DNA of 64,000 nucleotides, taken from assembly GCA_011947345.1 (NCBI GenBank), contig JAAVTG010000051.1:124001-188000 (forward strand), given 5' to 3'. The stretch comes from Phytophthora quininea (Eukaryota; Oomycota; Peronosporomycetes; Peronosporales; Peronosporaceae). This document shows positions 28,059 through 58,512 of the stretch, piece by piece. The notes beneath the pieces are model-generated. The model was not told where the DNA came from, ran no database searches, and saw only the letters and a program-made list of their open reading frames with translations. The position numbers and the translations under genes are program-made. Positions within the stretch are counted from its first letter, which is position 1, and each line of letters begins with the position of its first letter.

Positions 28059-29246
28059 CTACTCGCTCCTTCTGGCGAGCTCCTTGAGCAGCTCGGCGGT
28101 CGAGAGCGTCTCCAGCTCGACGGCATCCACGTCCAGCCAGTCCACAGGGTTCTTGAGCACCTCGAGCGTCTTGTCTTCCCACGATCCTTTGGTAGGAGCG
28201 TGCATGTACTCCCAACGAGCCGTCAGCGGGAGCGACATGAGGATCGACTCGACACGGGAGCCAGGCGTCAGCAACCCGAACTTGGTGCCGCGGTCGTACA
28301 TGATGTTGAACTCAACGTAGCGGCCGCGACGGATCTGCTGCCACTCCTTTTGCTGCTTGGTGAACGGCATGTCGATACGTTTCTTCAAGATCGGCACGTA
28401 GGCGTCCAGCATGGAGTTGGCGCAGCTACGGATCATCTGGAAGCTCTCCTCGGACGTGTCCGTGAGGTCATCGAAGAAGAAGCCTCCGATTCCACGCCCC
28501 TCTTTACGGTGAGGGATGTAGAAATACTCGTCACAGGCCTTCTTCCACTTGGGGTAGATCTCGGGGTCAGTCTTGTCCAGCTGCGTCTTGTACACAGCGT
28601 GGAAGTGACGAGCATCTTCCTCGAACAAGTAGCTCGGTGTCAGATCGGCACCGCCACCGAACCAACCGATTTTCTTGGCCTTGCCGTCCTTGTCCAAGTA
28701 GCCCGTCTCCACTTCAAAGTAGCGGTAGTTCAGGTGGATGGTAGGGGCCATGGGGTTGTGCGGATGCATGACCAGACTCACGCCACAGGCGTAGAATGGC
28801 AACTCCTGTCCTTCCTTTAGGTCTTTGCCTCTAGCAGTCATCTGTTTGACTGCGGCAGGCGGCAGTTTGCCGTGGATGATGGAGACACCCACGCCAGCCT
28901 TCTCAAAGACGTTGCCGTCCTGCAGGATGCGGCTACGGCCACCACCGCCGTGACCTTCGCGCTCCCATTTGTCCTCACGGAACTTCTTGCCATCCACAGC
29001 TTCAATACCGGCGCAAATCTCGTCCTGGACACGTAGGATCAGCGCTTCCATCCTCTTGGGCAGTGGAGCTTTGGTGTCGAACTCGATCGAGCTCTTGGGG
29101 ACTTTGTCTTGGGACAAAGGTTGATACAGGAACTCGGACGTGGGGATCTTGCCCTTGCAGTGGCTGGACTGCGTGGCCGAGTAGATGCCTAGAGCAGGCA
29201 GAGCCACGGCCATCGAGGGCTTGAGCAAAGACCGGAGGTGGCGCAT
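28059..29246 (-). CDS. CPOX: Coproporphyrinogen III oxidase, copy 1
   Basis: Intact 395-residue frame. The start at 29246 ([20 protein letters not shown]) gives an organelle presequence before the conserved domain at [14 protein letters not shown]. Family marks: [84 protein letters not shown]. The enzyme makes protoporphyrinogen IX in haem synthesis by oxygen-dependent decarboxylation. A second copy lies 295 bp upstream in the same direction. Confidence 0.95.
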
Positions 29247-29541
29247 TGCAGCGGCAGGTTCTTGAGCAATACACAGATGATCTTGAACTGGAACCTGCGG
29301 TCGGGAGCGAAAGTATCCTGACGCTTTGTTGGTGTAAAAGACACGAACCAACGATCCAACGACGGACATCCGTTGACGGTCAAGTTGATGCGGCACGCAA
29401 AGTAATGGAGCTGGACGGCAACACGTGCCTGCAATGGCTCTAGACGTTGGCACTGTGGGCAAATACACGTATACTTGTCGGTGTTTGAGTTGGTTGGATA
29501 TCTACACGCAGGTACGTTCACCATGGAGGACAGGAGCCGTT

Positions 29542-30655
29542 TTAGGGCTCGATCTTCATCCAGTCGACGGGGTTCTTGAGCACTTCGAGCGTCTTGGCCT
29601 CCCACGAGTCCTCCTTGGGCGAGTGCATGTACTCCCAACGAGCCGTCAGTGGCAGCGTCATCATGATGGACTCGACACGTGAGCCGGGGTCAGCAGCCCG
29701 AACTTGGTGCCGCGGTCGTACATGATGTTGAACTCGACGTAGCGGCCGCGACGGATCTGCTGCCACTCCTTCTGCTCCTCGGTGAAGGGCATGTCCTTGC
29801 GGAGCTTGAGGATCGGGATGTACGAGTCCAGCATCGAGTTGGCGCAGTGGCGGATGGTCTGGAACGTCTCCTCGGACGTGTCCGTGAGGTCGTCGTAGAA
29901 GAAGCCGCCGATGCCGCGGTGCTCCTTGCGGTGAGTAATGTAGAAGTAGTCGTCGCAAGCCTTCTTCATCTTGGGGTACCACGTGGGGTCGCGCTTGTCC
30001 AGGATGGTCTTGTAGACGGTGTGGAAGTGGCGAGCGTCCTCTTCGAACAGGAAGCTCGGGGTCAGATCGGCACCGCCGCCGAACCAGCCAATCTGCTTAG
30101 CGTTGCCTTCCTCGTCCTTGCCGACCTCGATCTGGAAGTACCGGTAGTTGAGGTGGATCGTGGGCGCCATCGGGTTGCGCGGGTGCATGACCAGACTGAT
30201 GCCGCACACGTAGAACGGCAGGTCCTTTCCAGGCGGGAGCTCGGCGTTGCGCTCGGTCATCTGCTGCGCCGCAGCGGCCGGCAGCGTGCCGTTAATGATG
30301 GACACGGCCACGCCGGCCTTCTCCATGACGTTGCCGTCCTGCAGGATGCGGCTGCGGCCGCCACCGCCAGCTTCGCGCTTCCACTCGTCGGTGCGGAACT
30401 TCTTGCCGTCCACGGCCTCGATGCCGGCGCAGATCTCATCCTGGACACGGAGGATCATGTGCTCCATGCGCTTGGGCAGCGGAGCCGACGTGTCGAACTC
30501 GATACTGTCCTTGGGGGTCTTGTCCTCGGACATGGGCTGGTGCAGGAAGTCGGCCATCGTGGGTGCTGGAAGTGTCTTGCTTGTGCTTCGGGGAGCAGAT
30601 TCGAGACTGTGGCAAGGGTCTTCATGGCCGCAGACTGCGCTGCAAGGACCGGCAT
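29542..30655 (-). CDS. CPOX: Coproporphyrinogen III oxidase, copy 2
   Basis: Paralog of the neighbouring gene with the same motifs ([40 protein letters not shown]). The frame from ATG 30557 ([10 protein letters not shown]) breaks at GGGG 29686-29689, close to the C-terminus; one more base gives exactly 339 codons from 30557 and the expected end [13 protein letters not shown]. Upstream, ATG 30655 ([19 protein letters not shown]) would run into 30557 if GGG 30561-30563 were one longer, supplying an organelle presequence like that of copy 1. I therefore place the likely start at 30655; the safe core is 29542-30557. Confidence 0.88.
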
Positions 30656-34808: not shown

Positions 34809-36598
34809 ATGTTCAGTGCCGTGTTGCTGCGTCAAGTATTTATTCGTGCTACGTGTCTTAGGTCAATGTACTTCCGTGCGTTATCATCTATTCTTGTAGA
34901 CTCGTCGATGCACGAACGTGTATTGCAGTCGACTACGGGTTTTAGCATCATGTCACGCAATGGCCCTCGCTTCTCGCAGACTTCGAAGCGGCCACGACCG
35001 ACGTTGGTCAAGGCGATCAGCAATTTCAAAGCTGTTGCACCAGAACCTGCCGCTATCCATTCCTCATGGCTATACGAACTACCCTCGTCCGAAACTTTGC
35101 CTTCGATCGACCTCTCCAAGACGCCGATGGCGTCAGTCTTCCGCAGAGAGAAATACAACCAAGTTTTGGAGTTTATGCGCACCAAGTACAAGTTCGTGCT
35201 GCTGATTAATCAATCGCTGGCGTTCACGTATTACGGCGTCATCTTCTTCCACTCGAGTGCTGTCCGAGCGGGTATTGCCATGTCGTACTTTAGTGCCGTC
35301 GTCCCATTCTGCTGCACCGCCGGCTTCTTCTCGTTGGACCTCTTCAAGCTGCTGGCTTTCAACTACGAATTCGTCTTCATTTCGTCGGTCAATACGCTGC
35401 AGTGGGTCGCGTTGGCCGGTGTCTACAACGACATCCGCTCCATCTCATGCCTTCTTACGTGGCTGTTTGTCCAGATGGTCCTCGTTCTTGACTGTAATTT
35501 CCGTACGTTCCAAGCATCGACCAAGTCCATCGTGATCGGCATCCCTGCAGTATTGATTGTCGGCGCATGTTGCATGAAGGTTTACCTCAAACGGTGGCGA
35601 CAGCGTCAAAGTACGTTGGGTCATCACCAAATCCGGTGCGTTATGCTTCGTGCAAGGCTATATCTTTGACCGGTTGACGCGTCTGTACGTGGATGACGGC
35701 ATGCTCTGTTGCGGTCCATGTCAAATGCCCAAACGAGTAGCGTCGAAATGTTATCCTCAGAACCGCATCTTCAAAAGCTACGGGTGTGCAAAAGACCGTT
35801 AAATATCGTCGACACTCGACGAACGATGCTTCCAGCGCTTGGGAAACTACTTGTCGGTCGTCTGGATGATAAGGTTCTCATCTCGCTGTACTTGGTAGGA
35901 TCGGTTGGTTTGCTTGCTACAGCGTGCACGTGGGGGCTATTACTGTTTAATCCACAGTTGTGCGACGGAATTGAAGCCTTGGGACTCATCACATTGGTCT
36001 GCACAATGCTGTTCACAATGACCTTCTTCGCAGCGTCTCAGCGAGACTTGGTTCGTGCCTTGTTCTTCAACTTTGACTGGGTGTTTACCGCTGTCCAGAT
36101 CCATGCCTTGGCACTGGCGTTATGTGACTTGTTGCAGTGGAAAACGTCATGTTGCTGTGCTATTGCGGCGTGTTGGTTCTGGTTTTATTGGATCCTCTTC
36201 CTCGACGCTCTCACTCCACCGATTAAAGCTGCTTTTCGGTTCCGTAAAATTTACGCGGCACCGATCATGGCCGGATTGCTATTGTCTTCCCTCGGCATCG
36301 TGGTGCTTTTCTTGCTTGACGATCCAATGAGCCCTTTTCTAGTGAACCGGGTGCTGTGAAAGTTCCACATCTCAGAAGATCGCTGGTATGAGCTTCACAC
36401 CGCGAGCTTTGCAGCTCTAAGCGTCATTACCATTGTTGGTTGGAACTTCCGGCTGGTGCTGGAGCTACCTCGTCGAAATGAACATGAACTGCTGTTCCTA
36501 CGAGGATTGCTAGAGTACACTAGTCCGTTCGATACTTTCCCCATGGAAGAGACCAAACCTATTGCTGTTCAACCTTCAGAAGCGAGTGCCGTCCGCTA
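34809..36598 (+). pseudogene. Multi-pass membrane protein, interrupted
   Basis: Part 1 (34809-35669) has a soluble N-terminus and five hydrophobic segments (FVLLINQSLAFTYYGVIFF, SYFSAVVPFCCTAGFF and others). Part 2 (about 35715-36598) has more (KVLISLYLVGSVGLLA, ALGLITLVCTMLFTMTFF, AAPIMAGLLLSSLGIVVLF). Between them, 35595-35780, coding seems to move through another frame (VRWVITKSGALCFVQGYIFD). Part 2 has an in-frame TGA at 36357-36359 after VNRVL; the same frame then stays open to 36598 with another membrane segment (ASFAALSVITIVGW). I take it as a damaged gene; sequencing error is possible for the frame changes but less so for the TGA. Its 35968-36345 part has a copy at 42282-42636. Confidence 0.55.
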
Positions 36599-42185: not shown

Positions 42186-42636
42186 TTTACGGGATCTTGC
42201 GAAGATATTGCCGTACAGGACGAAGAGGAATCGATGGCAGGTCAAGAATGTACTATTGAAGAGGCCCCTGTTGAACGACAGAATTGAAGCCTTGGGATTC
42301 ATCGCATTGGTCTGCACAATGCTGTTCACAATGACTTTCTTCGCAGCGTCTCAGCGAGACTTGGTTCGTGCCTTGTTCTTCGACTTTGACTGGGTGTTCA
42401 CTGATGTCCAGATCCATGCCTTGGCACTAGCATTGTGTGACTTGTTGCAGTGGAAAACGTCGTGTTGCTGTGCTATTGCGGCTTGCTGGTTCTGGTTCCA
42501 TTGGGTTCTCTTCCTCGACGCTCTCACTCCACAGATTAAAGCTGCTTTTCGGTTCCGTAAAATTTACGCGGCACCGATCATGGCCGGGTTGCTCTTGTCT
42601 TCCTTCGGCATCGTGGTGCTCTTCTTGTTTAACGAT
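42186..42636 (+). pseudogene. Chimeric duplicate of two neighbouring genes
   Basis: Positions 42190-42280 match 39822-39905 (C-terminal part of the long unknown gene; shared ATCTTGCGAAGAT-TTGCCGT and GAGGAATC-ATGGC). From 42282 the sequence switches to a near copy of 35968-36310 of the membrane-protein gene (TIEALG, FFAASQRDLVRALFF, AAPIMAGLLLSS in protein). The two sources are 3.5 kb apart and in the opposite order. The Fanzor element cuts off the copy at 42637. Confidence 0.8.
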
Positions 42637-42779
42637 CCGCTACAGACTTCGCTAACACGAGCTCATTGAGCTCGTGTCGGTTCGACCTCGCTTCGCTGTA
42701 GCCCGAAACGAGATCGCTTGTCTTCTGGGGTCTAGCGATGAATCGCATGCACTGCCAGCGATCCTGCACACGTGAACCG
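42637..42779 (+). repeat. Left terminal inverted repeat of the Fanzor element
   Basis: Nearly perfect inverted copy of 45005-45149. It contains an internal 11-bp inverted repeat, ACACGAGCTCA with a one-base centre, at 42655-42677. Its inner 48 bp correspond to the antisense of the last codons of the Fanzor gene. Confidence 0.9.
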
Positions 42780-43032
42780 CTTTGTTGTAGGAGGACAAGA
42801 CACAAAATTCTCATCACTTTTGCTGGATAATAGCTGTTGGCGAAGAAGAACTGCCGCGGCTCGAATGCCAAGGAACACAACCTGATGCTGTAGAATCATT
42901 GCTATATCGAGAGACTATGCTGCTCCGCTGCCACTTCGACGGGAAATATAAGCTTTACACCCAGCCATCGCTTCATGACGAAGATGCCTGATTGCCACCT
43001 TCAGTTGTGGTTTTGCCTTATCGACCGCAAGC

Positions 43033-45052
43033 ATGCCGGCCCAAGCTTCTAGTACGCGCAAACGACCGCCGGATGTGGGCGTTCCCAAGCCACCTTCCTC
43101 GTCCGTCCGTGCCAAACGCCGGCGACGGTCAAGTGGATGGGCCCAGCTTCGCACCAGCATCCGGAACGCGATGCAACAAGTCCGAGTCCTGGTGTTCGTG
43201 CACGTGGCCGATGCCAAGACATGCCTCGATGTTCGGATGGGAGCTGTCTTTCGCTGGAAGAAGATCGGGTGGATGACGCTGCAAGCCTTCGCTACCATTG
43301 AGCGCCATCAGCTGGAGGACCGCTTGCTCGAGCTCGAGCAGTTCAGGAGGGAAGACCTGACGACGTCGACGGACAAGGCCGTCCAAGCGCGTGTCGACGA
43401 GACACTTTCACGGCTGGCAGCCCACGTCTTGCGTGGACACGTTCAAGAGTACCGTCCACTTTTGGCAAAGCTTTCGCCGGAGTGCCGCCGTCAGCTGAAC
43501 CAGACGTTTGATGCGAGTTTGCTTGAGACGTTGACGCCACCAACAGACGTCCTGCACCCTAACTCCTGGTTCTGCTTCCAGACGCAGTCAAACTCGGCAC
43601 CACGACAACATACGCTGCAAGAGCTCGGAGACTTTGCCCACACGAAAACGTGGCTTCCGGACGACATCAAGCATGCCGAGAAGTGTGTGGCGTTTGACAC
43701 GAAGGCTGAGCGAGCAAGATCCATCTCCAACATCGAGGGGACCATCAATGTTCTCAAATGCGACGCAGTGGCCAACGCAGACGACATCGCTTCGGCCAAG
43801 CACCTCCTCTCAACGATGGCGACCGACGACAAGCTCATGATCTCTCGGACGCGGAAGTACCAATTGTTTCCAAGCGCGGAGCAACGACAACAACTGCGAG
43901 AGTACATGGGTACTTGCCGCTGGACATACAATCAGGCTGTTGCCCACTTCAGAAAAACTACAATGTCCAAGGCCGCTGCATTGCGAGATCTGTACGTGAC
44001 GAAGACTACCAGTAAAACGAGAGTGTATCCTGATGCCATGGGGCCACCTCCAGAGTGGGCATTCAACACCCCAAAAACTTCCGGTACAACACACTGCGCA
44101 AGTTCGAGTCAAATGTCAAGAGTGCGTTCAGCAACAAAGAGAACGGCAACATTGATCACTTCAAAATGCGGTTCAAAAGCAGGAAAATGACGGTCGCTAC
44201 TTCACTTTCTGTGAAGATGCGAACGCTGCCAAAATCACGTACGTAGAGGGCGAACCAAGAGCGATGCTGTCCATTACAAAGCTGGAAAATATTCCTATCC
44301 GGTGCGACCCAGGACTCAAGATTTTTAGCGAAATTCAGATCACAAACGAGAACGGATACTGGTATGCTGTGATTCTGCAGTACGTCCGCCCTCAAGAGTG
44401 TGTGAACCAAGGAAGAACGATCGCGCTGGACCCTGGTCTTAAAGCTTTCACGACCGGCGTGGATCTTGATGGTAACGCTCTGCACATTGGACGTGGCAAT
44501 CGAGAGCACTTGGATCGATTGCGAGGCCGAGCAGCAACAGCTCAGCGGCAGATGTCTAGGATCAAGAATCTCCATGGACATCGCAGTGGAAAACAGTGGA
44601 GGGCGTTCGTGAGAGCCAAGCGAGCGTTCGACTGTGCCACAGCCAGGATGAGGAATTGCGTCAAGGAGTTGCATTATCAGACGTCTGCATACCTCGCCAA
44701 GCACTACGACACCATCGTGCTTCCGATATTCAGCTCGAAAAGCATGATAAAGAAAAGCTGCAAGCGCAACCACACGTACAACAAGATGCTTCTGGGACTC
44801 AAGCACTTCCAGTTCCGAGAGCTGTTGAAGGCCAAGTGCGAGGTGGCGGGCAAGTCACTGGTTGTGTGCTCGGAGATGTACACCACTCAGACGTGTGGGC
44901 GCTGCTCACGACTGCATTTGAAGATCGGCAACAAGGACGTATTCGAGTGTCCGCACTGCGACCACGTGGCTGGCCGAGATGTGAATGCCGCCTTCAATAT
45001 TCTTCGGTTCACGTGTGCAGGGTCGCTGGCAGTGCATGCGATCCATCGCTAG
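43033..45052 (+). CDS. Fanzor RNA-guided nuclease (eukaryotic TnpB)
   Basis: About 673 codons. Residues 1-270 are an N-terminal extension with a basic patch (KRRRRSSG) that could be a nuclear signal. The TnpB N-terminal helix region follows (TRKYQLFPSAEQRQQLREYM, CRWTYNQAVAHF). RuvC-I: IALDPGLKAFTTGVD. The place where TnpB has its RuvC-II Glu reads YDTIVLPIFSS, without Glu; a Glu sits instead in VVCSEMYTTQTCGRC next to the zinc finger (CGRC...CPHC), as in Fanzors with a moved catalytic residue. RuvC-III: GRDVNAAFNIL. The frame shifts at AAAAA 44073-44077 and AAAA 44184-44187; one base more in each makes 2,022 nt, an exact codon number. Likely function: cleavage of DNA guided by an RNA from the element's right end. 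Confidence 0.88.
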
Positions 45053-45149
45053 ACCCCAGAAGACAAGCGATCTCGTTTCGGGCTACAGCGAAGCGAGGTC
45101 GAACCTCGACACGAGCTCAGTGAGCTCGTGTTAGCGAAGTCTGTAGCGG
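45005..45149 (-). repeat. Right terminal inverted repeat of the Fanzor element
   Basis: Pairs with the left repeat. It overlaps the last 48 bp of the Fanzor coding frame. Internal palindrome at 45109-45131 (ACACGAGCTCA arms). In TnpB/Fanzor loci the guide (omega) RNA usually comes from this end, so this is the candidate scaffold. Confidence 0.9.
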
Positions 45150-45151
45150 TC
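45147..45151 (+). repeat. Gypsy target-site duplication, left
   Basis: CGGTC, identical to 50322-50326. Its first three bases are the last three of the Fanzor element. Confidence 0.85.
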
Positions 45152-45398
45152 TGTAGTGGCTTTAGACCTTGCAGCTTGAGAAGTCGACTTGGGTGCTTGC
45201 TGGTAAATCGAAATCTGTATTGAGCGCAGCATTTGCTGCTTAAGCGTTGGTTTCTGTTGGTTTCTGTTAGTTTCGCCTAGTTGCGCTTCTTTGGATATGC
45301 AGTGTGCCTTCGTGAGATCTGTACGATCTCACGGTCCGTTGCTTGTTGTTGTTGCTTGCTTGGATATGTCTGCTGGTACTTGCTGGAGTATCACTACA
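45152..45398 (-). repeat. Gypsy LTR (3' LTR)
   Basis: 247 bp, TGTAGTGGC...ATCACTACA. Three differences from the other LTR. Confidence 0.95.
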
Positions 45399-45449
45399 CC
45401 GCCCTCCAAGCAGATTTATCCGTCGTCCTAGGTGTATCCGATGGCTGAG

Positions 45450-48400
45450 CTAGTTCTTGTGCTTGTTGCGTTGCTTCTTTGCTGGCTTTGCGCTGGAAGC
45501 AGTGTTAAGGGCTAGTTTGTCACGGTGCGTCTTGATGTTCGACACGAAGCGAGTGAGGTCGGCATCTTGCGCTTTGCTGATGTAGTCAAGTAGTTTTGTG
45601 GGAACGTCTTCGTGCATGGTCCGTACCGGCTCCCACGAGTCCTCGATATCCTCGAGCCCTTCCCAGCTCACGGGTAGCTCGAAAGTGTGCGTTGCGCTGC
45701 GTCGGTGTTCTTTGAATTCTTGAACAGTCAGGTAAATATCCTGGTTGGCGATATGCTCGAGTATTTCTTCACTCACCTCAAAGCTGCTGTCTGCGTAGAG
45801 TTTGAGACGTGATGGGTGTGCTTCACGTGCTTTTCCGTTGATAAGTTGTTCGATTAGGAAGGAATTGGCCTTAGCATCGATCACTTTGTAAGGGCCGATC
45901 CATGTTACTGAGAGTTTGTTGCGAGGTAGCTTAGAGTCGACACGTGACCATAGCACGTAGTCACCGACGTGAAAATTCACTGGTTGCACTCCACGTTGAT
46001 GAGCTTTGTTGCGTTCGGTCTGCTGGGCTTTTGCGTCGGCAATGGTGTGATGCATCGAGGAAAATGAGCTGCGTAGTAGTTCCACTGATTTGGCAATGTC
46101 GATGCTGAGTGGTGCAGTGGTGAGAACATTGCTGCTGCTGGCACCTTCGTTGGCAACAATCTTGTTCAGCGGGTTTGTTGCTTTAACGCCGAGGAATACT
46201 TCGGCTGGTGCATGGTTGGCAAGTGATGCGACGGGGCTATGGTTGAGATTGGACTCAATCAAGGGCAACAGCACCGCCCATTTGTCTTGCGGTAACTTGA
46301 ATTCCAGAAGCATCACTCGGAGAACCTGCAAAATGTCCCTATTCAGTCGTTCAATACTCCCATTGATCCACGGGCAGTAAGCGACTGTGAAGGTTTGCTT
46401 CATTTGTGTTTTGTTGCAGAGCTCATCCAGTAGTTGGTTCTTGAAGTGTGTCGCGGAGTCGCTGATAAGTAGTTGAGGCATTCCATACCTCATGCTCCAT
46501 TCAAGAATTGCTTTGGCTGCTGTAGAGGCATCCGGTGTTGAACACTCGATCAGTTCACAGAAGTGCGAGAAATCGTCTTACAAGACGAGTAGATAGTTGC
46601 TAGTACCATTGTAGTCTCCAATGGATAGATAATCCATGTGCAGCGCGTCATTACGTTCACTCGAGCGGTAAATCTCGCCCCACGGTCTTGGTATTATCTT
46701 GCCACCCTTGACGTGGCAGCATAGCAGGCAATTTGAGCAGAATAGTCTCGCTTGCTGGTTAAGTTTTTCGATGTGGAAATGCTCCTTCAGGTGATTAATC
46801 ATTGCGTTAACGCCACGGTGGCCCATGATGCCGCAGTGGGCTATCACCATGATGCGTGTTATCAGTGCAGTGGCATCGGAAGGGATCCACAGTCGGTTGG
46901 CGTTGTCGCGCCATTCACCTGCAGCGGATTTGCTCAAGCTTGTGGGTGGCTTGTGCGTTGCATTTGCTTGTGCAGTGAGAATGTCCTCAACTGAAGGCCA
47001 TTCAGTGTCAGGTTGAAGAGGGCGTAGCGATGTCGGACTGATGTCGTGCTGCTGCACGCGCTTCATCGGGCTGGTATCAGCTGTGGGTTTCATGCAAGCC
47101 CAGCGTGATGCCATGTCAGCCCAGACGTTTGCTTCTCCGGTAATGTGATCGATTGTGTACCGCAACTCGTTCAATTTCAGGCTCCATCGCTGTAATTTCC
47201 CTCTAACGTGTTTCTTGATCTCCTCACCAGGTGCAAAGATGAATATGAGGTTGCGGTGGTCTGAATAGAGCCGAAACCCTTTCGACCTGATCAAGAGGTA
47301 GTCTAGATCTGTGGCTGCCTTGATTATTGGGTAAGCTTCCTTTTCCGACACGCTCCAATGCAGGGCTGCGTCCTTGAAAGTGCCGCTCATGCAGTGTACC
47401 AAGCGGTGGTCCTGCTCCGTGATGTCCATTGTGGCGTTCCAGTTTGCAACCACGGTTAATATGATGCTCCAACCACTGTCGCTAGCGTCAGTGAACAGAC
47501 ACAGTTCATCTTCTTCATCGGGTGTTACTAGTATAGCTGTATCTGCCAGTAGCTGCTTCACAGCCGAGAAACTATCTTGTTCTGCATCTGTGAGAGTGAC
47601 TGGCAGCCTTGCTGCCACGCGTTTCGTGCGACGCGTACCCGAGAGTGCAGTTTGTAGTCGATTTTGTAGTGGTGCTGCAATTCTGGCAAAGTCAACCAGA
47701 GAATTGCGCATCCAGCCAGCTGCACAAAGGAATTGCTGCAGTTCAGCTATCGTAGTCGGCTCCTTCATGTCAGTCAACGTTTTGATCTTGCTGGGATCGT
47801 AAGTGATGCCATCAGGTGTTATGATGTGTCCACACCACTTGGCGTTCAGAGTGTACAAGCAGATTTTGTTTAGTCCAAGAAAGAGACCGTGCTTGGCAAG
47901 AGTACGATAAACTTTGTCCAAGGTCACGAGAAATTCATCAATTGTGCCGGCGTAAATCAACAAGTCATCTATCCACGCGAGAACACTGTTATAGAGTAGT
48001 TCAGCTTCACGCAATATTTTCTCCACTGATTGCTGGAAGTGGATGGAGGAATCAACTGATCCCTGTTGAAGTCGTGTGGGAGTAAAAATGCCATCCTCCG
48101 TCATGTACGACTGAGACTCTTGACTCACTTGCGCCAGAGCCATTTGCCAGAAGCTCTTTATGAAGTCTACTGTCTGTTTGTGAGGCTTCTTCTTTGCATG
48201 CTGAAGGCGTGTGCTCAGGCTTGGCATTGAGCCTGCAAGCGGTTGAATTTTTTCATTGACGCGGCGAAAATCAACCGTTTGACGAAGCTCATGTGCTTTT
48301 CCCGGCTTGCGTACAGGTCGGGCTGGGCTAGCCCATCTGCTGGATTCATTGCGATAGACCCATCCATAGGACACTAAGTTGTCGTTGAACTGCTTCATCC

Positions 48401-50030
48401 ACTCGCGTTCATGTGGGGCGTAAGTTCGTGGTTTGCAGCGAACAGGCTCGGTCCCCTCCTTGAACCGGATGACAAAGGGCTCGATCTTTGACGGTGGGTC
48501 GCTGCCTATTGAGACTCGCCAGATATCGTATCTGGTGATGACATCTAGTAGTTCTTGCTTCCTGTCATGGGGAAACCCATTTGCGACAGCTTCATCGACC
48601 AGGTGCTGTAGCTTCTCAAGTATCACGCTTTTGTCAGGTGGGTCAAACTTCATGGGGGTAGCTGATTCAAATGGGTCGAAGTCAACAACTTCCCTGTTGG
48701 CAAGAGAGTCGAATTGTTTGTCGACGTCAATACCCAATGCCTTTAGCGTCAGTGATCCAAGTAAGAATTCATCTTCATCCATCTCTGTGATAATGCATGA
48801 CACGTTGCGCATTCTAACCTTTCCTGCTGGTGTTAGCAGCTCCAGGTTGAGTAGAATTGATTCTTCGCATCTGATTATGGCTCCACCAACCGCTTTGCCA
48901 TCGATTGGCCTTGCGAGTTTTTGTGGGATCACATCCGGGCATGCTTGGCAGACTTCGTTGACCACAGTTCTTGGAATCACATTATGCTTGCTCCCGTTGT
49001 CGAGATGATATGGCATCATGGCTACGCCATTAAAGGCGACGTGCTTGAACGGGAGTTCTTCATCTACGTGAAGGAAACGCTTCATTTTTGAAGGTTCGCT
49101 GGGCTTTCTCCGTTCCATGAAGGCTTGCATAGCAGTTCTCTTCTGCTCTTCAGTAGCTGAAGGACAGTCGTTAACCCAGTGCGGGCCTTTACAATGCAGA
49201 CATCCTTGAGCTGGAGCCGGATCTCGCGTCTTCCTCACTGTTCGTTCGGGTTTGTGTTCATTTCCTGAACGTGCATTTGCTGTTGATTCGTGCTTCTCAT
49301 CATTTGGTGCTGGCTTTTGGCTTGGTTTTGATGAGGTTCTGTCCCTGCCTGCGCTGTACGTGTCGAAAGATTGCTGATTCTTCAGAGCTTCTGTCTTGAT
49401 GACATCAAATAGGCGGGGTACATTGCTTTTGATCGAGAGATCAGGTTCCTGATGCAGCAGGACTTGTTCCTTCAACAGAGGTGGATGGAGATTGTCCGTC
49501 AGCAACTTGCACTTCAGCTTGTCGTTACCTTCTGAAGTATCGCACAGACCGCTCTCTTCAATCAGTTCTTCAAAGCGATCAAAGTAGTTCAGAACGCGCG
49601 CCTTGACATCTCTTTGCCGTAGATCCATCCTCAAGTGCTGCTTCATGATTGCATGGATGTTGGGAAGCTGATCATTCACCATGCTGGAGATGATGGCCTT
49701 GATGGCTGCTACCAACTTCTGCTCGGTCATTTCGCTGACCGGGACCTTCAACTCGTAATCGCAGAAGGTCTTCAAGAGTCTCTTGTTGATGCTGTTGATG
49801 ACAGGACGCATAGCCGTCGCTATCGTCTCGCCCGATTCTTGGCATCGAGCTCGGACTGCATCCTCATACATCTCTCGCTCTCGCTTCCATTTGACAAGAG
49901 CTTCGTGCGAAAAGCAGACTATCTCCGGCGGTTCAATCGCAGTCCAGAGCTTAGTCGTACTCTTCACTGTCGTGTCACCATTTTCTCCGGCGGTGTTGGC
50001 ACGACTGCGTTTTGACTTGGGCTTGGCCAT
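45450..50030 (-). CDS. Gag-Pol polyprotein of the gypsy element
   Basis: Reads from ATG 50030 (MAKPKSKRSRANTAG). Gag-like region, zinc knuckle CLHCKGPHWVNDC, protease-like PYHLDNGSKHNVIP, reverse transcriptase (VDFRRVNEKI, AWIDDLLIYA), RNase H (LFTDASDSGWS), integrase zinc finger (HRGVNAM...CSNCLLC), integrase core (LHMDYLSIG, LISDSATHFKNQ, INGSIERLNRD) and a C-terminal chromodomain (FELPVSWEGLEDIEDSWEPV). The only interruption is an in-frame TAA at 46578-46580, at VL-DDFSHF, between the integrase zinc finger and core. That nonsense codon would stop integrase; the frame is otherwise open for about 1,526 codons. The protease DNG instead of DTG/DSG is unusual. Confidence 0.93.
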
Positions 50031-50074
50031 AGCCCAATGCTAGACTAGATCTTGTGCACAGCTAAAGTTAACTT

Positions 50075-50321
50075 TGTCGTGGCTTTAGACCTTGCAGCTT
50101 GAGAAGTCGACTTGGGTGCTTGCTGGTAAATCGAAATCTGTATTGAGCGCAGCATTTGCTGCTTAAGCGTTGGTTTCTGTTGGTTTCTGTTAGTTTCGCC
50201 TAGCTGCGCTTCTTTGGATATGCAGTGTGCCTTCGTGAGATCTGTACGATCTCACGGTCCGTTGCTTGTTGTTGTTGCTTGCCTGGATATGTCTGCTGGT
50301 ACTTGCTGGAGTATCACTACA
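50075..50321 (-). repeat. Gypsy LTR (5' LTR)
   Basis: 247 bp. As the coding strand is minus, this is the promoter-bearing LTR. Followed at 50322-50326 by the second CGGTC. Confidence 0.95.
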
Positions 50322-50340
50322 CGGTCTAGTTATTGTACGT

Positions 50341-52339: not shown

Positions 52340-52951
52340 TGCCGAGCCACGTCAGACTGCAGAATGAGAGCGAGGGCACACCGAAGTCATAGCGGCGGGA
52401 CGAGCGCAGTAAAGATGACGCGCATTTTCCGGCTGAATATAATGAAATGATCGCACCAACATTGAGATGGCTACATTGTGTGATGGAACACGAAATTATG
52501 TTCTGTTTACTTGTTGAGGATGTGTCGCGATGTTTACTTTGTTGTTGCATTGCGGCTATTATAGAGATGCTTCCATTGCCAGTCTTGCGATCGACAATCG
52601 ACAATCGCCATCGCCCGCTCCAGCAAGTGCTGTAGCCTCACTGGCAATAACATGCTTGCTCCGCGTTGAAATGACGCCTCGATCGCATCGTGAAGTGCCA
52701 ACCTGAACCAGAACTGCAGCCGTGTCTTCGCATCGGTTAGAAGGTCATTCTTGTCCTGTTCACAATGAACAGATGGTCACTCCTCCACTACGTCAAGCTC
52801 CACAACCGATCCTGAAGCGACTCCTTTTCAACTTGTCGAGCACTTACGAACGGTCAGGAACTCGTTCAAACACCGGATGCAGTTCGTTTGGCACTCCCCA
52901 CTTTCCAATTCTCTTCCGACAACCACAACCTTCTCTCCATCGACCACACTG
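52340..52951. promoter_or_regulatory. Divergent promoter region ABCG / carbonic anhydrase
   Basis: 612 bp between two head-to-head genes. GGCACTCCCCACTTTCC at about 52888-52904 resembles an oomycete start-site element for the carbonic anhydrase. Similar sequence precedes the other two copies. Confidence 0.45.
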
Positions 52952-53907
52952 ATGAAGTTCCTCGCCTCAGTTTCCGCTCTCGTCGCTGCCGGTCTGACTG
53001 CTTCGACTGTCGCTGATGTGTCGACAGGCCCCACTTGGGGCTACCAGGCTGACCATCCGAGCATGGTCGCTTCTTCCGAGTGGAAGAACCAGTGGGAGGC
53101 CTGCGGTGGCACTCGCCAGTCCCCATCGACATCGAGACAACGTCTGCTGTCCAGAGTAAGAACACCGGCAAGACCAAGAGCTCGCTCGCTTTCAGCGGCA
53201 AGTGCTCGCAGTTCAACATGACCGAGCCGCACGAGCCATTGGAGGTGGACGCTATCGGAGGTGCGTGATGAACATCATTGTCTTTGGTTCAGTCACTCAC
53301 CGTTTACGTTTCGCAACACCGACAGGATCATGCACTGCCTCGGCCAACGGCACAGCGTACAAACTGGCCCAATTCCACCTGCACGCGCCATCGGAGCACA
53401 CTCTGGACGGAGAAGCTCTGGATGGGGAAATCCACTTTGTGCACAAGTCCAGCGACGGCTCCGCGCTGATGGTTGTGGGTCTTTTCCTCAAGGTGGCCAA
53501 GACGAGCGACCCCTGGTTGGTTCCCGTCCTTGATGGTCTTGACCACGTCAACTCGACCGAGCAGCACGAACCAGTTGTCGTAGCGCTGTGAGTTATCGTC
53601 GTCTGCTCACTTCATGTTGCGGCCGGACCACTAATGCGTGTTTGGCGTGATACAGGGAATCGTACTCGGCGCTGATCAAGAAAGCCATCAACGGCGGCGG
53701 CCTGTACAACTACCCAGGCAGTCTGACAACCCCGGATGCGGTGAGAATGCGGACTGGTGGGTGGTGCAGACCCCAATCAAGATTTCGGCCATCGACTTCG
53801 GTCGTCTTCACCAGGACTTGGTCGAGTACAACATCACCAACGATGGAGACAACGCTCGTCCAGTGCAGCCTCTGAACGGACGCACCATCACGCACTTCGA
53901 CTATTAG
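52952..53907 (+). CDS. Secreted alpha-carbonic anhydrase, copy 1
   Basis: ATG 52952; MKFLASVSALVAAGLTASTV is a signal peptide. Exons 52952-53260, 53326-53587, 53656-53907, with introns GTGCGT...GACAG and GTGAGT...TACAG. Alpha-class marks: WGYQADHPS, QSPIDI (after the first break), zinc ligands FHLH and the His of EIHFVH, and SEHTLDG. Breaks at CCCC 53121-53124 and CCCC 53730-53733, both as if one C were missing. Hydrates CO2 to bicarbonate outside the cell, probably at the wall or host interface. Head-to-head with the ABCG gene. Confidence 0.88.
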
Positions 53908-54012
53908 CTGTATTACAACAAAACACAAAGTTAGTGTTTCCAACACCGCTACGAGAGAGAGGTACTAAATACATGACAAATACACGTACTGTTTGCTGAG
54001 AATAGAGACACC

Positions 54013-54631
54013 GCCCAGGATGCCCAGTAGATATGGACTGTAACAGCCGATATGTTGATATACCGCACATTATGTGGGATTGTCAGCGAGCTCGGCAATT
54101 CTGGCGATTCCTTTTAACTCACTGGTTTGGATGTGCGGTATCCGTGGAAGAGATCCAGTGGTTCAGCAGGAACATTGCCCAACGTCAAGCTTCTCCAGTA
54201 AGCGAGGAATTCATCCGTCAAATGTGTGCAATGTACGGTCAATTCAACGAGGACACGGAAACGGCGGCCCAACGAATGTGGTGGGCTCTGTGTAGTATGG
54301 CGTTTACCTTGCTTTGGCAGACCCGCAACAGCATAGTACACGAAAGAAAAACTTGGACGGCGCAACACCAAGTGAAGAGTGTGTGGGGAAAATGCTTAGG
54401 GCAAACACATGCTGTTGCTCGGAAAGAAGCACACAGACCACAAAGCAGGATGCAAGGAATATATCTCAGACTAGTTCATGGACTGTCTGGATAGCATGCC
54501 CGAAGCTCCCGACCGGAAACTGTCATACGTTTTCAAGCGGCCCAAGACGAGAGAACCAACGATGCTCATCGATTGAAGCTGCATCAAGGAGACTAATAAC
54601 TAATCGTTAAATAGACTACCTTGCTCTCTTT
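54013..54631 (+). mobile_element. 5'-truncated LINE fragment
   Basis: Flanked by TGAGAATAGAGACACCG (53996-54012) and TGAGAATAGAAACACCG (54632-54648), a 17-bp duplication with one change. The insert of about 620 bp holds an open frame (54033-54494) with IMWDCQRARQFWRFLLTHW, the C-terminal zinc-finger-like region that follows reverse transcriptase in many LINEs. It is not the same family as the full LINE at 10.8-19.6 kb. It lies only behind carbonic anhydrase copy 1. Confidence 0.7.
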
Positions 54632-54959
54632 CTGAGAATAGAAACACCGTTTGGTAGTATTACGTGTACAGTGTCCACACCGCAAATTCGACTGGCCAAT
54701 TCATCACGTGGACTGCATCGCATGCCCAAACGTCGTGCATGAAGTAATCGAGTGAGTTCTTTAGACTGTTGCCGCGGGATCACACGACTCCAGCCAAACA
54801 TCAAACTCAGCATTGACGTGACTACGCTCGCGAGTTAGGCAACCCCACCGCTCGGATCGACACCACCATTCGGCTCATGCGGCAATCCTCGACTTGAACC
54901 CTAGGATACCCCCTCGAGCGGTGTTCATCCACCCTAAACTCCAACACAAATCCTGAAAC

Positions 54960-55100
54960 GACAACTTCCTTGGTGGAAGTCCCTTCCGTAAGAGTGTTCT
55001 TGCTGGACAAGCAGTCCAACTAGGTACTCTTGCTAGCTCCAGGAGGATCCATTGCCGCCAGAAGGCCACGTTGAACGACCCCCATTGATGACGGTCGCAA
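54960..55100 (-). pseudogene. Decayed ABCG Walker A fragment, copy A
   Basis: Minus-strand translation VQRGLLAAMDPPGASKST, stop, LDCLSSKNTLTEGTS aligns with AQPGRLLAVMGPSGAGKSS, LLDCLSGRNTTAEGT of the ABCG gene. It sits upstream of carbonic anhydrase copy 2 in the same head-to-head arrangement as the intact pair. Confidence 0.8.
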
Positions 55101-55510
55101 CGGCTGATTAGGCCGGAATGCCCGGCCGACACATCGCCACTTTAATTGTCGCTCACAAATCGTGATTGAACGTCGTCCCATTGCGCCATTACCGCCTTGT
55201 CAAAGAACTTCTTCGCGGGGGTAATGTACTAGTATTGATTAATCACTGTGAGCCACCGTCGAAACGGCAAGTCGTGTGCAGCTTGGAGGCCACCACAACA
55301 GCAAGCAACAGTACCCGTCGATACCGGTAGCCACCGCGCTCTCGAACCGATGCGTTCGGGCCCAAAATGTTGACTCCAACAGATGGCTGTATCGAATGCT
55401 CCGCCGCCACAACTGAGCACGCGGCCCCATCCTGAGACGACTCCTTGGCATTGCCCCACTTTCCTTTCTTCTCCGGACGACCTCAACCGCCCTCCTTTCC
55501 TTTCTCCACG

Positions 55511-56466
55511 ATGCTGAACTTCCTCGCTTCGGTCACCGCTCTAGCTGCTGTCTGTTTGACTATTTCAACTGCTGCTGACGTGTCCACCGGTCCTGTCTGG
55601 GGCTACAAGGAGAACGATTCGAGCATGGTCGCGGCGTCCAAGTGGTCTGAGCACTGGGAGGCGTGCGGTGGCACTCGCCAGTCCCCATCGACATCGAGAC
55701 AACGTCTGCTGTCCAGAGTAAGAACACCGGCAAGACCAAGAGCTCGCTCGCTTTCAGCGGCAAGTGCTCGCAGTTCAACATGACCGAGCCGCACGAGCCA
55801 TTGGAGGTGGACGCTATCGGAGGTGCGTGATGAACATCATTGTCTTTGGTTCAGTCACTCACCGTTTACGTTTCGCAACACCGACAGGATCATGCACTGC
55901 CTCGGCCAACGGCACAGCGTACAAACTGGCCCAATTCCACCTGCACGCGCCATCGGAGCACACTCTGGACGGAGAAGCTCTGGATGGGGAAATCCACTTT
56001 GTGCACAAGTCCAGCGACGGCTCGGCCTTACTGGTCGTGGGCGTCTTCCTCAAGGTGGCCCAGAAGACTGATGGCTGGTTGCTTCCCGTCCTTGATGGCC
56101 TCGACCACGTCAACTCGGTGGAGCAGCACGAGCCAATTGTTGTGACTCTGTGAGTTATTGCATCGACTCTTTGTGATCGAGGCAGGCCCACTCACGCTCG
56201 TTGTGGTGATACAGGAAATCGTACTCGACGCTGATCAAGAAAGCCATCAACGGCGGCAGCCTGTACAACTACCCAGGCAGTCTGACAACCCCGGATGCGG
56301 TGAGAATGCGGACTGGTGGGTGGTGCAGACCCCAATCAAGATTTCGGCCATCGACTTCGGTCGTCTTCACCAGGACTTGGTCGAGTACAACATCACCAAC
56401 GATGGAGACAACGCTCGTCCAGTGCAGCCTCTGAACGGACGTACCGTCACCCGCTTCGACTATTAG
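55511..56466 (+). CDS. Secreted alpha-carbonic anhydrase, copy 2
   Basis: MLNFLASVTALAAVCLTIST signal peptide, then the same exon layout as copy 1. Zinc-site FHLHAPSEHT and EIHFVH are kept. Breaks at CCCC 55683-55686 and CCCC 56289-56292. In copy 3 the second run has five C and is in frame, so at least this break is probably a consensus error or a very recent slip. Part of a 1,918-bp tandem duplication. Confidence 0.85.
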
Positions 56467-56877
56467 CTGTATTACAACAAAACACGAAGTTAGAGTTTCC
56501 AACACCGCTACGAAAGAGAGGTACATGACAAATACACGTACTATGTTTGCTGAGTATAGAGACACCGTTTGGTGGTATTACGTGTACAGTGTCCACACCG
56601 CAAATTCGACTGGCCAATTCATCACGTGGACTGCATCGCATGCCCAAACGTCGTGCATGAAGTAATCGAGTGAGTTCTTTAGACTGTTGCCGCGGGATCA
56701 CACGACTCCAGCCAAACATCAAACTCAGCATTGACGTGACTACGCTCGCGAGTTAGGCAACCCCACCGCTCGGATCGACACCACCATTCGGCTCATGCGG
56801 CAATCCTCGACTTGAACCCTAGGATACCCCCTCGAGCGGTGTTCATCCACCCTAAACTCCAACACAAATCCTGAAAC

Positions 56878-57018
56878 GACAACTTCCTTGGTGGAAGTCC
56901 CTTCCGTAAGAGTGTTCTTGCTGGACAAGCAGTCCAACTAGGTACTCTTGCTAGCTCCAGGAGGATCCATTGCCGCCAGAAGGCCACGTTGAACGACCCC
57001 CATTGATGACGGTCGCAA
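56878..57018 (-). pseudogene. Decayed ABCG Walker A fragment, copy B
   Basis: Same fragment as 54960-55100, shifted by 1,918 bp, upstream of carbonic anhydrase copy 3. Confidence 0.8.
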
Positions 57019-57428
57019 CGGCTGATTAGGCCGGAATGCCCGGCCGACACATCGCCACTTTAATTGTCGCTCACAAATCGTGATTGAACGTCGTCCCATT
57101 GCGCCATTACCGCCTTGTCAAAGAACTTCTTCGCGGGGGTAATGTACTAGTATTGATTAATCACTGTGAGCCACCGTCGAAACGGCAAGTCGTGTGCAGC
57201 TTGGAGGCCACCACCACAGCAAGCAACAGTACCCGTCGATACCGGTAGCCACCGCGCTCTCGAACCGATGCGTTCGGGCCCAAAATGTTGACTCCAACAG
57301 ATGGCTGTATCGAATGCTCCGCCGCCACAACTGAGCACGCGGCCCCATCCTGAGACGACTCCTTGGCATTGCCCCACTTTCCTTTCTTCTCCGGACGACC
57401 TCAACCGCCCTCCTTTCCTTTCTCCACG

Positions 57429-58385
57429 ATGCTGAACTTCCTCGCTTCGGTCACCGCTCTAGCTGCTGTCTGTTTGACTATTTCAACTGCTGCTGACGTG
57501 TCCACCGGTCCTGTCTGGGGCTACAAGGAGAACGATTCGAGCATGGTCGCGGCGTCCAAGTGGTCTGAGCACTGGGAGGCGTGCGGTGGCACTCGCCAGT
57601 CCCCATCGACATCGAGACAACGTCTGCTGTCCAGAGTAAGAACACCGGCAAGACCAAGAGCTCGCTCGCTTTCAGCGGCAAGTGCTCGCAGTTCAACATG
57701 ACCGAGCCGCACGAGCCATTGGAGGTGGACGCTATCGGAGGTGCGTGATGAACATCATTGTCTTTGGTTCAGTCATTCACCGTTTACGTTTCGCAACACC
57801 GACAGGATCATGCACTGCCTCGGCCAACGGCACAGCGTACAAACTGGCCCAATTCCACCTGCACGCGCCATCGGAGCACACTCTGGACGGAGAAGCTCTG
57901 GATGGGGAAATCCACTTTGTGCACAAGTCCAGCGACGGCTCGGCCTTACTGGTCGTGGGCGTCTTCCTCAAGGTGGCCCAGAAGACTGATGGCTGGTTGC
58001 TTCCCGTCCTTGATGGCCTCGACCACGTCAACTCGGTGGAGCAGCACGAGCCAATTGTTGTGACTCTGTGAGTTATTGCATCGACTCTTTGTGATCGAGG
58101 CAGGCCCACTCACGCTCGTTGTGGTGATACAGGAAATCGTACTCGACGCTGATCAAGAAAGCCATCAACGGCGGCAGCCTGTACAACTACCCAGGCAGTC
58201 TGACAACCCCCGGATGCGGTGAGAATGCGGACTGGTGGGTGGTGCAGACCCCAATCAAGATTTCGGCCATCGACTTCGGTCGTCTTCACCAGGACTTGGT
58301 CGAGTACAACATCACCAACGATGGAGACAACGCTCGTCCAGTGCAGCCTCTGAACGGACGTACCGTCACCCGCTTCGACTATTAG
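57429..58385 (+). CDS. Secreted alpha-carbonic anhydrase, copy 3
   Basis: Nearly identical to copy 2. At 58207-58211 it has CCCCC, giving the open end PGCGENADWWVVQTPIKISA through ...RTVTRFDY, stop 58385. The first run (CCCC 57601-57604) is still one short. It is the best of the three copies. Zinc ligands as in the others. Confidence 0.88.
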
Positions 58386-58512
58386 CTGTATTACAACAAA
58401 ACACGAAGTTAGTGTTTCCAACACCGCTACGAGAGAGAGGTACTAAATACATGACAATAGACTTACTATGTTTGAGGGTAGAGGTATCACAACTTGTTGT
58501 TTATACCGGCGT

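Follow-up and report, generated by a model that had tools for sequence, protein, structure and literature searches.

The closest precedent for the Fanzor family described here is provided by CRe-1, CRe-2, and CRe-3, Fanzor1 families of Chlamydomonas reinhardtii that have been read as one-ended Helitrons (Bao and Jurka, 2013; PMC3627910), and this precedent reduces the novelty of a one-ended spread of Fanzor genes. According to the part of that paper drawn on here, CRe copies combine a Fanzor gene with an intact 3' end, 5' truncation, variable target duplications, and, in some copies, captured sequence, all of which are shared by the present family. CRe ends resemble Helitron2, CRe insertions follow TTTT, and CRe genes have introns (PMC3627910, same part), whereas in the present family no other element was found to carry the terminal sequence (hereafter the tip), most joints were followed by GG, the aligned copies had no intron-sized gaps between them apart from nested transposons, and one copy carried an inverted far end together with a glutathione S-transferase (GST) gene.

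In the portion of PMC10711439 used here, the guide scaffold is reported to be built partly from inverted repeats in both Fanzor1 and Fanzor2*, the latter being cut-and-paste transposons of Chloropicon and molluscs. The present family resembles Fanzor2* in its Fanzor2-like protein and in inverted repeats whose predicted place is within the guide scaffold, but Fanzor2* elements end in inverted repeats and are flanked by clear target duplications (PMC10711439, same portion), whereas here the left repeat was exceptional. IS607-type Fanzor2 is comparable in its protein (see the best structure match below) and in the GG at the right joint, which resembles the IS607 GG crossover (PMC10711439). IS607-type elements are described, in the part of PMC3627910 drawn on here, as having neither target duplications nor inverted repeats, whereas duplications were found here, and inverted repeats in two copies. 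A further difference is that the genome contained no match to serine recombinase (PF00239), which was matched in 10 of 14 control genomes. SINE-like elements mobilized by non-LTR retrotransposons have a fixed 3' end, 5' truncation, variable duplications, and far-end inversion, as do the Fanzor copies. They differ in that here no A-rich, simple, or repeated 3' tail was found in the right ends of the copies, no non-LTR element in the genome shared the Fanzor tip (23-nt tip, up to 3 mismatches), and the cargo encodes a putative RNA-guided nuclease.

The locus lies in a window of 64,000 nucleotides, that is, the whole stretch of DNA that was analyzed, and its features are listed in Table 1. The original prediction described a Fanzor nuclease in a transposase-less element with inverted repeats of about 145 bp and a possible TA target duplication. 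The repeats were confirmed, with an outer block of 43 nt (42637-42679/45107-45149) and an inner block of 101 nt (42679-42779/45005-45105) that were each 98% alike; the 11-bp palindromes near both tips were likewise present, and the right repeat overlapped the last 48 bp of the gene as described. The predicted limits (42637..45149) held to within 2 bp. Because the target duplications of tip-only insertions (see below) place the tip at GCTACAG...CTGTAGC, the outer CC/GG belongs to the target, and the element is 2 bp shorter on each side; the empty site of a sister copy, on contig C274, supports this limit to within about 3 bases. A Tc1/mariner carrier with TA target duplication found no support, since TA is internal to the conserved tip and the duplications seen in the family were 10, 12, and approximately 20 bp long, starting with GG; the window copy itself showed no duplication. 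No transposase was recognized in the window element from its open reading frames (ORFs) and Pfam domains, in line with a transposase-less carrier, but the view that the inverted repeats define the element is not supported, as they were present in only two of 12 compared copies.

Table 1. Features of the Fanzor locus and its immediate flanks (positions in the window).
Feature	Position	Strand	Basis
Left flank: 3'-truncated gene copy, no Pfam match	42208..42638	+	Homology to longer paralogue (35957-36325 and beyond)
Fanzor element, tip to tip (GCTACAG...CTGTAGC)	42639..45147	+	Target duplications of tip-only insertions
Left inverted repeat, an inverted copy of the right (3') end	42639..42779	-	Found in 2 of 12 compared copies
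Left tip palindrome, 11-nt arms around one base	42655..42677		Sequence
First Fanzor ORF, 385 aa, with HTH_OrfB_IS605	43033..44190	+	ORF list, Pfam
Second Fanzor ORF, other frame, 262 aa from ATG; RuvC and zinc-finger part, DPG and alternative glutamate	44264..45052	+	ORF list, Pfam, signature match
Right end: final 48 bp of gene and guide-scaffold-like region up to tip	45005..45147	+	Repeat comparison, copy alignment, RNA fold
Predicted stem 1 of right-end RNA	45020..45044	+	Centroid fold; pairs kept in 96.9% of cells, 11 ends
Predicted stem 2 of right-end RNA	45068..45101	+	Centroid fold; pairs kept in 96.4% of cells, 11 ends
Right tip palindrome, 11-nt arms around one base; stem 3 of predicted RNA	45109..45131		Sequence, RNA fold
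Gypsy LTR retrotransposon against right tip, outside the Fanzor element	45152..50321	-	LTRs, domains, duplication

The gene was identified as TnpB/Fanzor by PF12323 in the first ORF and PF07282 in the second, both over the cut-off, with PF01385 below it in the second ORF; the PF07282 region corresponds to the Cas12f1-like/TnpB zinc-finger domain. The single gene of the original prediction proved to be split over two frames, and the window copy therefore looks broken. The gene of the sister copy on C687 (L012) was also split; there the overlap between the two open frames falls elsewhere in the gene, which makes decay or an assembly error a more probable cause than an intron. Among solved structures, the closest by sequence was 'TnpB-like protein L79' (E 7.5e-12), which we take to be the mimivirus Fanzor2. 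The best phage match was a Microcoleus phage protein with the same DPG and alternative-glutamate signature, and no viral relatives were found among 7 pattern matches in IMG/VR viral contigs. The protein of Microcoleus phage My-WqHQDG that has a Fanzor-like TnpB signature (L077 19-1704) is annotated as hypothetical. The Fanzor molecular fingerprint, given in the portion of PMC10711439 used here as DPG in RuvC-I plus a glutamate placed six residues ahead of the first zinc-finger CxxC, was matched in the window copy and in L012, with its two signatures 145 residues apart, and had no match in L013, of which a single open frame was tried. The window gene appears to be a broken member of a Fanzor (Fanzor2-like) family, with RNA-guided cutting as its putative function.

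Folding of the right repeat as RNA gave a predicted three-stem structure beyond chance (-60.8 kcal/mol, z -3.2, 0/200 shuffles as good), and the left end, read antisense to the gene, behaved similarly (z -3.0, 0/200 shuffles as good). Much the same three stems were predicted from both repeats, the right one ending at the tip, which agrees with the earlier proposal that both ends could make the same scaffold RNA; the scaffold-in-repeat organization reported in PMC10711439 (portion used here) provides a precedent for that proposal. Pairing was conserved in 96.4% of 329 cells over 11 ends (6/500 shuffles as high) and dropped to 26-54% after the partners were slid. Covariation support was weak: the score was reached by 5/500 shuffles, and a two-sided change occurred in one pair only, for which 251/500 shuffles did as well. 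No Rfam match was found in 42500-45300 up to E 1.

On the left side of the window copy, the similarity of the truncated gene to a longer paralogue 6 kb away ended at 42638, where the tip begins, and the continuation of that paralogue was absent elsewhere in the window from 37201 on. On the right side, the Gypsy element, whose LTRs were 98.8% identical, had inserted 4 bp from the Fanzor tip, with a 5-bp duplication (CGGTC) at 45147-45151 and 50322-50326. As Gypsy abuts the right tip, the true right flank of the Fanzor element starts near 50322, and with Gypsy removed it reads GGTCTAGTTATTG. The assembly yielded no empty site for the window copy; its left flank occurred once more (the paralogue at 36 kb) and its right flank once only. 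With Gypsy skipped, no target duplication was found at the window copy (223/500 shuffles as good). Elsewhere in the window, we observed a tandem duplication of approximately 1.9 kb with 99% identity (54629-56549 and 56547-58474, together 54629-58474), an 88% copy of it (52888-54013), and two adjacent coproporphyrinogen III oxidase genes on the minus strand (28059-29465 and 29661-30554).

When the left repeat was searched against the 87-Mb genome, other copies emerged, giving 14 aligned rows that correspond to 12 ends (two each from the window and C687, eight single), and a protein search gave 62 matches, mostly distant. Twelve copies were compared. The right end was present in those of the window, C687, C162 (two), C591, C375, C527, C586, and C186 and C709 (both short), and was missing in those of C171 and C942 (C942:109468). 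Tip-only pieces, C942:146247, other protein matches without repeat DNA, and more distant family members were outside this count, and C375, C527, and C586 were counted as one insertion because their flanks are common to all three. The ten right ends stopped within a few bases of one another, and the other side differed: relative to the window element, the alignments started on the left at position 1 (window and C687), 173 (C171), 182 (L013), 193 (C591), 201 (L014), 341 (C375), 831 (C527), 1397 (C586), 2334 (C186), and 2360 (C709), the starts of C527 and C586 reflecting later loss. The two copies with a left repeat, namely those of the window and C687, were identical at its inner junction, and both lacked an upstream sequence common to L013 and C171, which suggests that the left repeat arose in their common ancestor. 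The shared left boundary of L013 and C171 was also considered as a true left end and was dropped, as the similarity seemed, by eye, to continue past it with a gap.

The 23-nt tip pattern occurred at 14 places in the genome with up to 3 mismatches, comprising ten right ends, two left ends, and two tip-only pieces; all were ends of this family, and none lay outside it. An internal 23-nt pattern occurred at 7 places, all in known copies. The raw comparison of 14 with 7 overstates the excess of right ends, because C375, C527, and C586 retain a diverged internal region (more than 3 mismatches) and because a reversed tip pattern, used as a control, alone gave 2 chance matches in the genome. Right-end-only pieces numbered four (C186, C709, and the two tips) versus two without a right end (C171 and C942), so the excess of right ends was slight.

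A TGA codon was found in L013, L014, and C591 where the window copy, L012, C171, L015, L016, and L017 read CGA. As L014 carries both TGA and a target duplication of its own, a copy with a stop codon probably moved, which suggests movement in trans, with the reservation that the site is a CpG at which recurrent mutation is possible. Further observations concern the surroundings of the copies. A 99.8% identical inverted duplication of GST genes flanked Fanzor copy L013 (1-2149 and 6152-8300, on C162). A transposon with inverted repeats of approximately 255 bp starting with CACTGCC was present in or beside the copies of L014 (488-2017) and C591 (L074, from 625 to ~2166 of the joined stretch), and a Helitron with a PIF1 helicase was nested in the zinc-finger region of the C591 copy (L011 1801-4563). 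The distant Fanzor families of this genome (L041, L044, and L047; L037 and L045; L028 and L029) had shared right ends of their own, e.g., CCCAAGGCG, with different flanks.

Target duplications were tested in 12 rows, each against 500 shuffles, and three rows stood out, with 0/500 shuffles as good. In C709 (L010), about 29 bp of tip lay between two perfect copies of ATCTGCGAGACC (12 bp), and a paralogous GST unit in L013 represents the empty site, with one copy of ATCTGCGAGACC. In C281 (L070), about 57 bp lay between two copies of ATTTACTTCC (10 bp), and an empty site was not found. The third insertion, L014, bears the gene, lacks the left repeat, and had a duplication of approximately 20 bp with 2 to 4 differences among three copies; its insertion site was empty at the paralogous site in L010. 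An empty paralogous site was thus available for two of the three duplication-bearing insertions. In the other nine rows, including the window and C687, a convincing target duplication was absent (19 to 492/500 shuffles), and short matches in C591, L015, L016, and the far end of C687 (19 to 48/500 shuffles) were excluded as duplications. The supported duplications belong to copies without the left repeat. No duplication was readable for L009, because its right flank was absent beside two insert-free paralogues of its left flank (361-base stretches). A 70-bp sequence, 86% alike between L070 (1583-1652) and L013 (2288-2354), was located beside the tip-only C281 insertion and Fanzor copy L013; by eye, it looks like the 3' end of paralogous genes.

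The duplications of the three supported insertions started with GG just outside the tip. Counted by eye in gene orientation, GG directly followed the tip at 8 of 10 joints judged independent: window right, window left, C687 left, L014, C375/C527/C586, C591, and the tip-only pieces of L070 and L010. At these joints the tip varied somewhat, being shortened to CTGT in L014 and ending in T in C591 and the L070 piece. Bases other than GG followed the right end in L009 and in the GST lineage (L010, L012, and L013). It was already present in the empty sites of L014 and of the left side of C687, and one of the two bases differed in the L013 empty site of the C709 tip.

The C687 copy differed in the extent of its insert. 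Contig C274 was 97% alike over 479 bases of the C687 left flank and lacked the insert; clear similarity stopped at ACATACC, where C687 reads GCTACAG, and BLAST extended the match three bases into the tip with one mismatch. The left repeat formed the fixed end of the insert, which extended past the right end of the element through the GST gene that adjoins this end in L010, L012, and L013; C274 resumed only beyond the GST gene. At the far end, approximately 13 bp of filler and 74 bp of adjacent source sequence, inverted, lay between GST and the flank, about 100 bp of the C274 target sequence was missing, and the gap between the two source pieces was 7 bp in L010 and 37 bp in L013. Such a far-end inversion of adjacent source sequence was seen in one case, this one, by comparison with L010 and C274. 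Twin priming during target-primed reverse transcription characteristically leaves an adjacent segment inverted at the far end, and the 74-bp inversion together with the target loss is as expected of it. The GST gene points at the right end of Fanzor, and read-through from it, antisense across the Fanzor gene as far as the left tip, would yield an RNA with the content of this insert. One-ended insertion is supported for three insertions by their target duplications and for this fourth by an empty site with target loss.

The explanation that we tentatively favor, with somewhat less than even confidence, is that RNAs whose 3' end is the guide-RNA hairpin are copied from that one end through target-primed reverse transcription. 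Such RNAs would begin at different promoters upstream, all finish at the hairpin tip, and be reverse-transcribed at a nicked target by a non-LTR-type reverse transcriptase acting in trans. The expected outcome would be left truncations, variable duplications, an occasional far-end inversion, and co-mobilized genes. The fixed 3' end, 5' truncation, and variable duplications (convincing in 3 of 12 rows) typical of target-primed insertion were all found, and the non-LTR-type endonuclease family had 14 matches in the genome, 7 of them over the cut-off. Against this explanation stand the missing A-rich or simple tail, the failure to find a non-LTR partner with the same tip, the single case of inversion with its unequal gaps (7 and 37 bp), the nine rows lacking a convincing duplication, the joints in L009 and the GST lineage that lack GG, the slightness of the right-end excess, and the abundance of Helitron genes in the genome. 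We infer an RNA intermediate for the movement. The second repeat of the window copy would then be a secondary inverted copy of the same end rather than one half of a cut-and-paste pair, and in the C687 sister copy it served as the anchored end; the most plausible reading of the inverted repeat is a surplus copy of the one end that is active. Among the titles found on Fanzors, in a search with most subscription journals outside its reach, none concerned GG-targeted or tip-only Fanzor insertions or a reverse-transcription model.

One-ended rolling-circle copying of DNA, starting or stopping at the hairpin tip in the manner of Helitrons as proposed for CRe-1, 2, and 3, is the main alternative, though a rather doubtful one. 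The CRe families have the same signature of intact 3' ends and 5' truncation, with duplications of approximately 7-19 bp and occasional captured sequence (PMC3627910, in the part drawn on here), a terminal hairpin near the fixed end fits, and Helitron_like_N had at least 152 matches in this genome, nine of which shared the top score. However, the Helitron nested in the C591 copy, the single one read, ends TC...hairpin...CTAG, unlike the Fanzor ends in both tip (CTGTAGC) and target (GG), and all 14 tip places belong to the Fanzor family. Moreover, the duplications and the far-end inversion are unusual for a Helitron, although CRe copies do have duplications.

Distinctly unlikely is a non-autonomous cut-and-paste element with long terminal inverted repeats and a duplication of approximately 10-20 bp other than TA, of which the tip-only pieces would be excision footprints left after incomplete gap repair. 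The repeats are indeed long and similar, the window and C687 copies both have two of them with the same inner junction, and footprints with one residual end inside the duplication are known from DDE transposons. This reading is opposed by the ten of 12 compared copies without a left repeat, by the lack of a convincing target duplication in either two-repeat copy, by the extension of the C687 insert beyond its right repeat, by the varying duplication length (10, 12, and ~20 bp), and by a tip that was found in no other sequence. Least probable is repair at Fanzor's own breaks, in which a target-bound guide RNA would be copied into DNA with its scaffold end beside the target and the cut offset would give the duplication: the predicted boundary between scaffold and guide is indeed where the inserted pieces end and the duplications start, and Cas12-like nucleases cut the non-target strand at a distance close to 10-12 bp, but the copies have little in common in their right flanks other than GG, so that no donor guide matching the new target was seen, and the ~20-bp duplication and the gene-carrying C687 insert fit less well.

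Within the favored target-primed copying of tip-ending RNAs, a stronger version, which we consider unlikely, is that the mobile unit would be the guide RNA's own 3' end: whatever RNA terminates in this tip would be reverse-transcribed into GG sites, whether scaffold fragments of 29-57 bp, whole Fanzor genes, or host genes whose transcripts run into the tip, such as GST, with the Fanzor ribonucleoprotein perhaps nicking the target. Paired inverted repeats around a Fanzor gene are, on this view, no proof of cut-and-paste movement. Fanzor genes move without a transposase of their own, and if the guide-RNA end suffices for this, the RNA of the nuclease would double as its mobility signal. If true, this would account for the 3'-anchored Fanzor families of distant eukaryotes and would show that RNA-templated insertion coupled to an RNA-guided nuclease has a precedent in nature.
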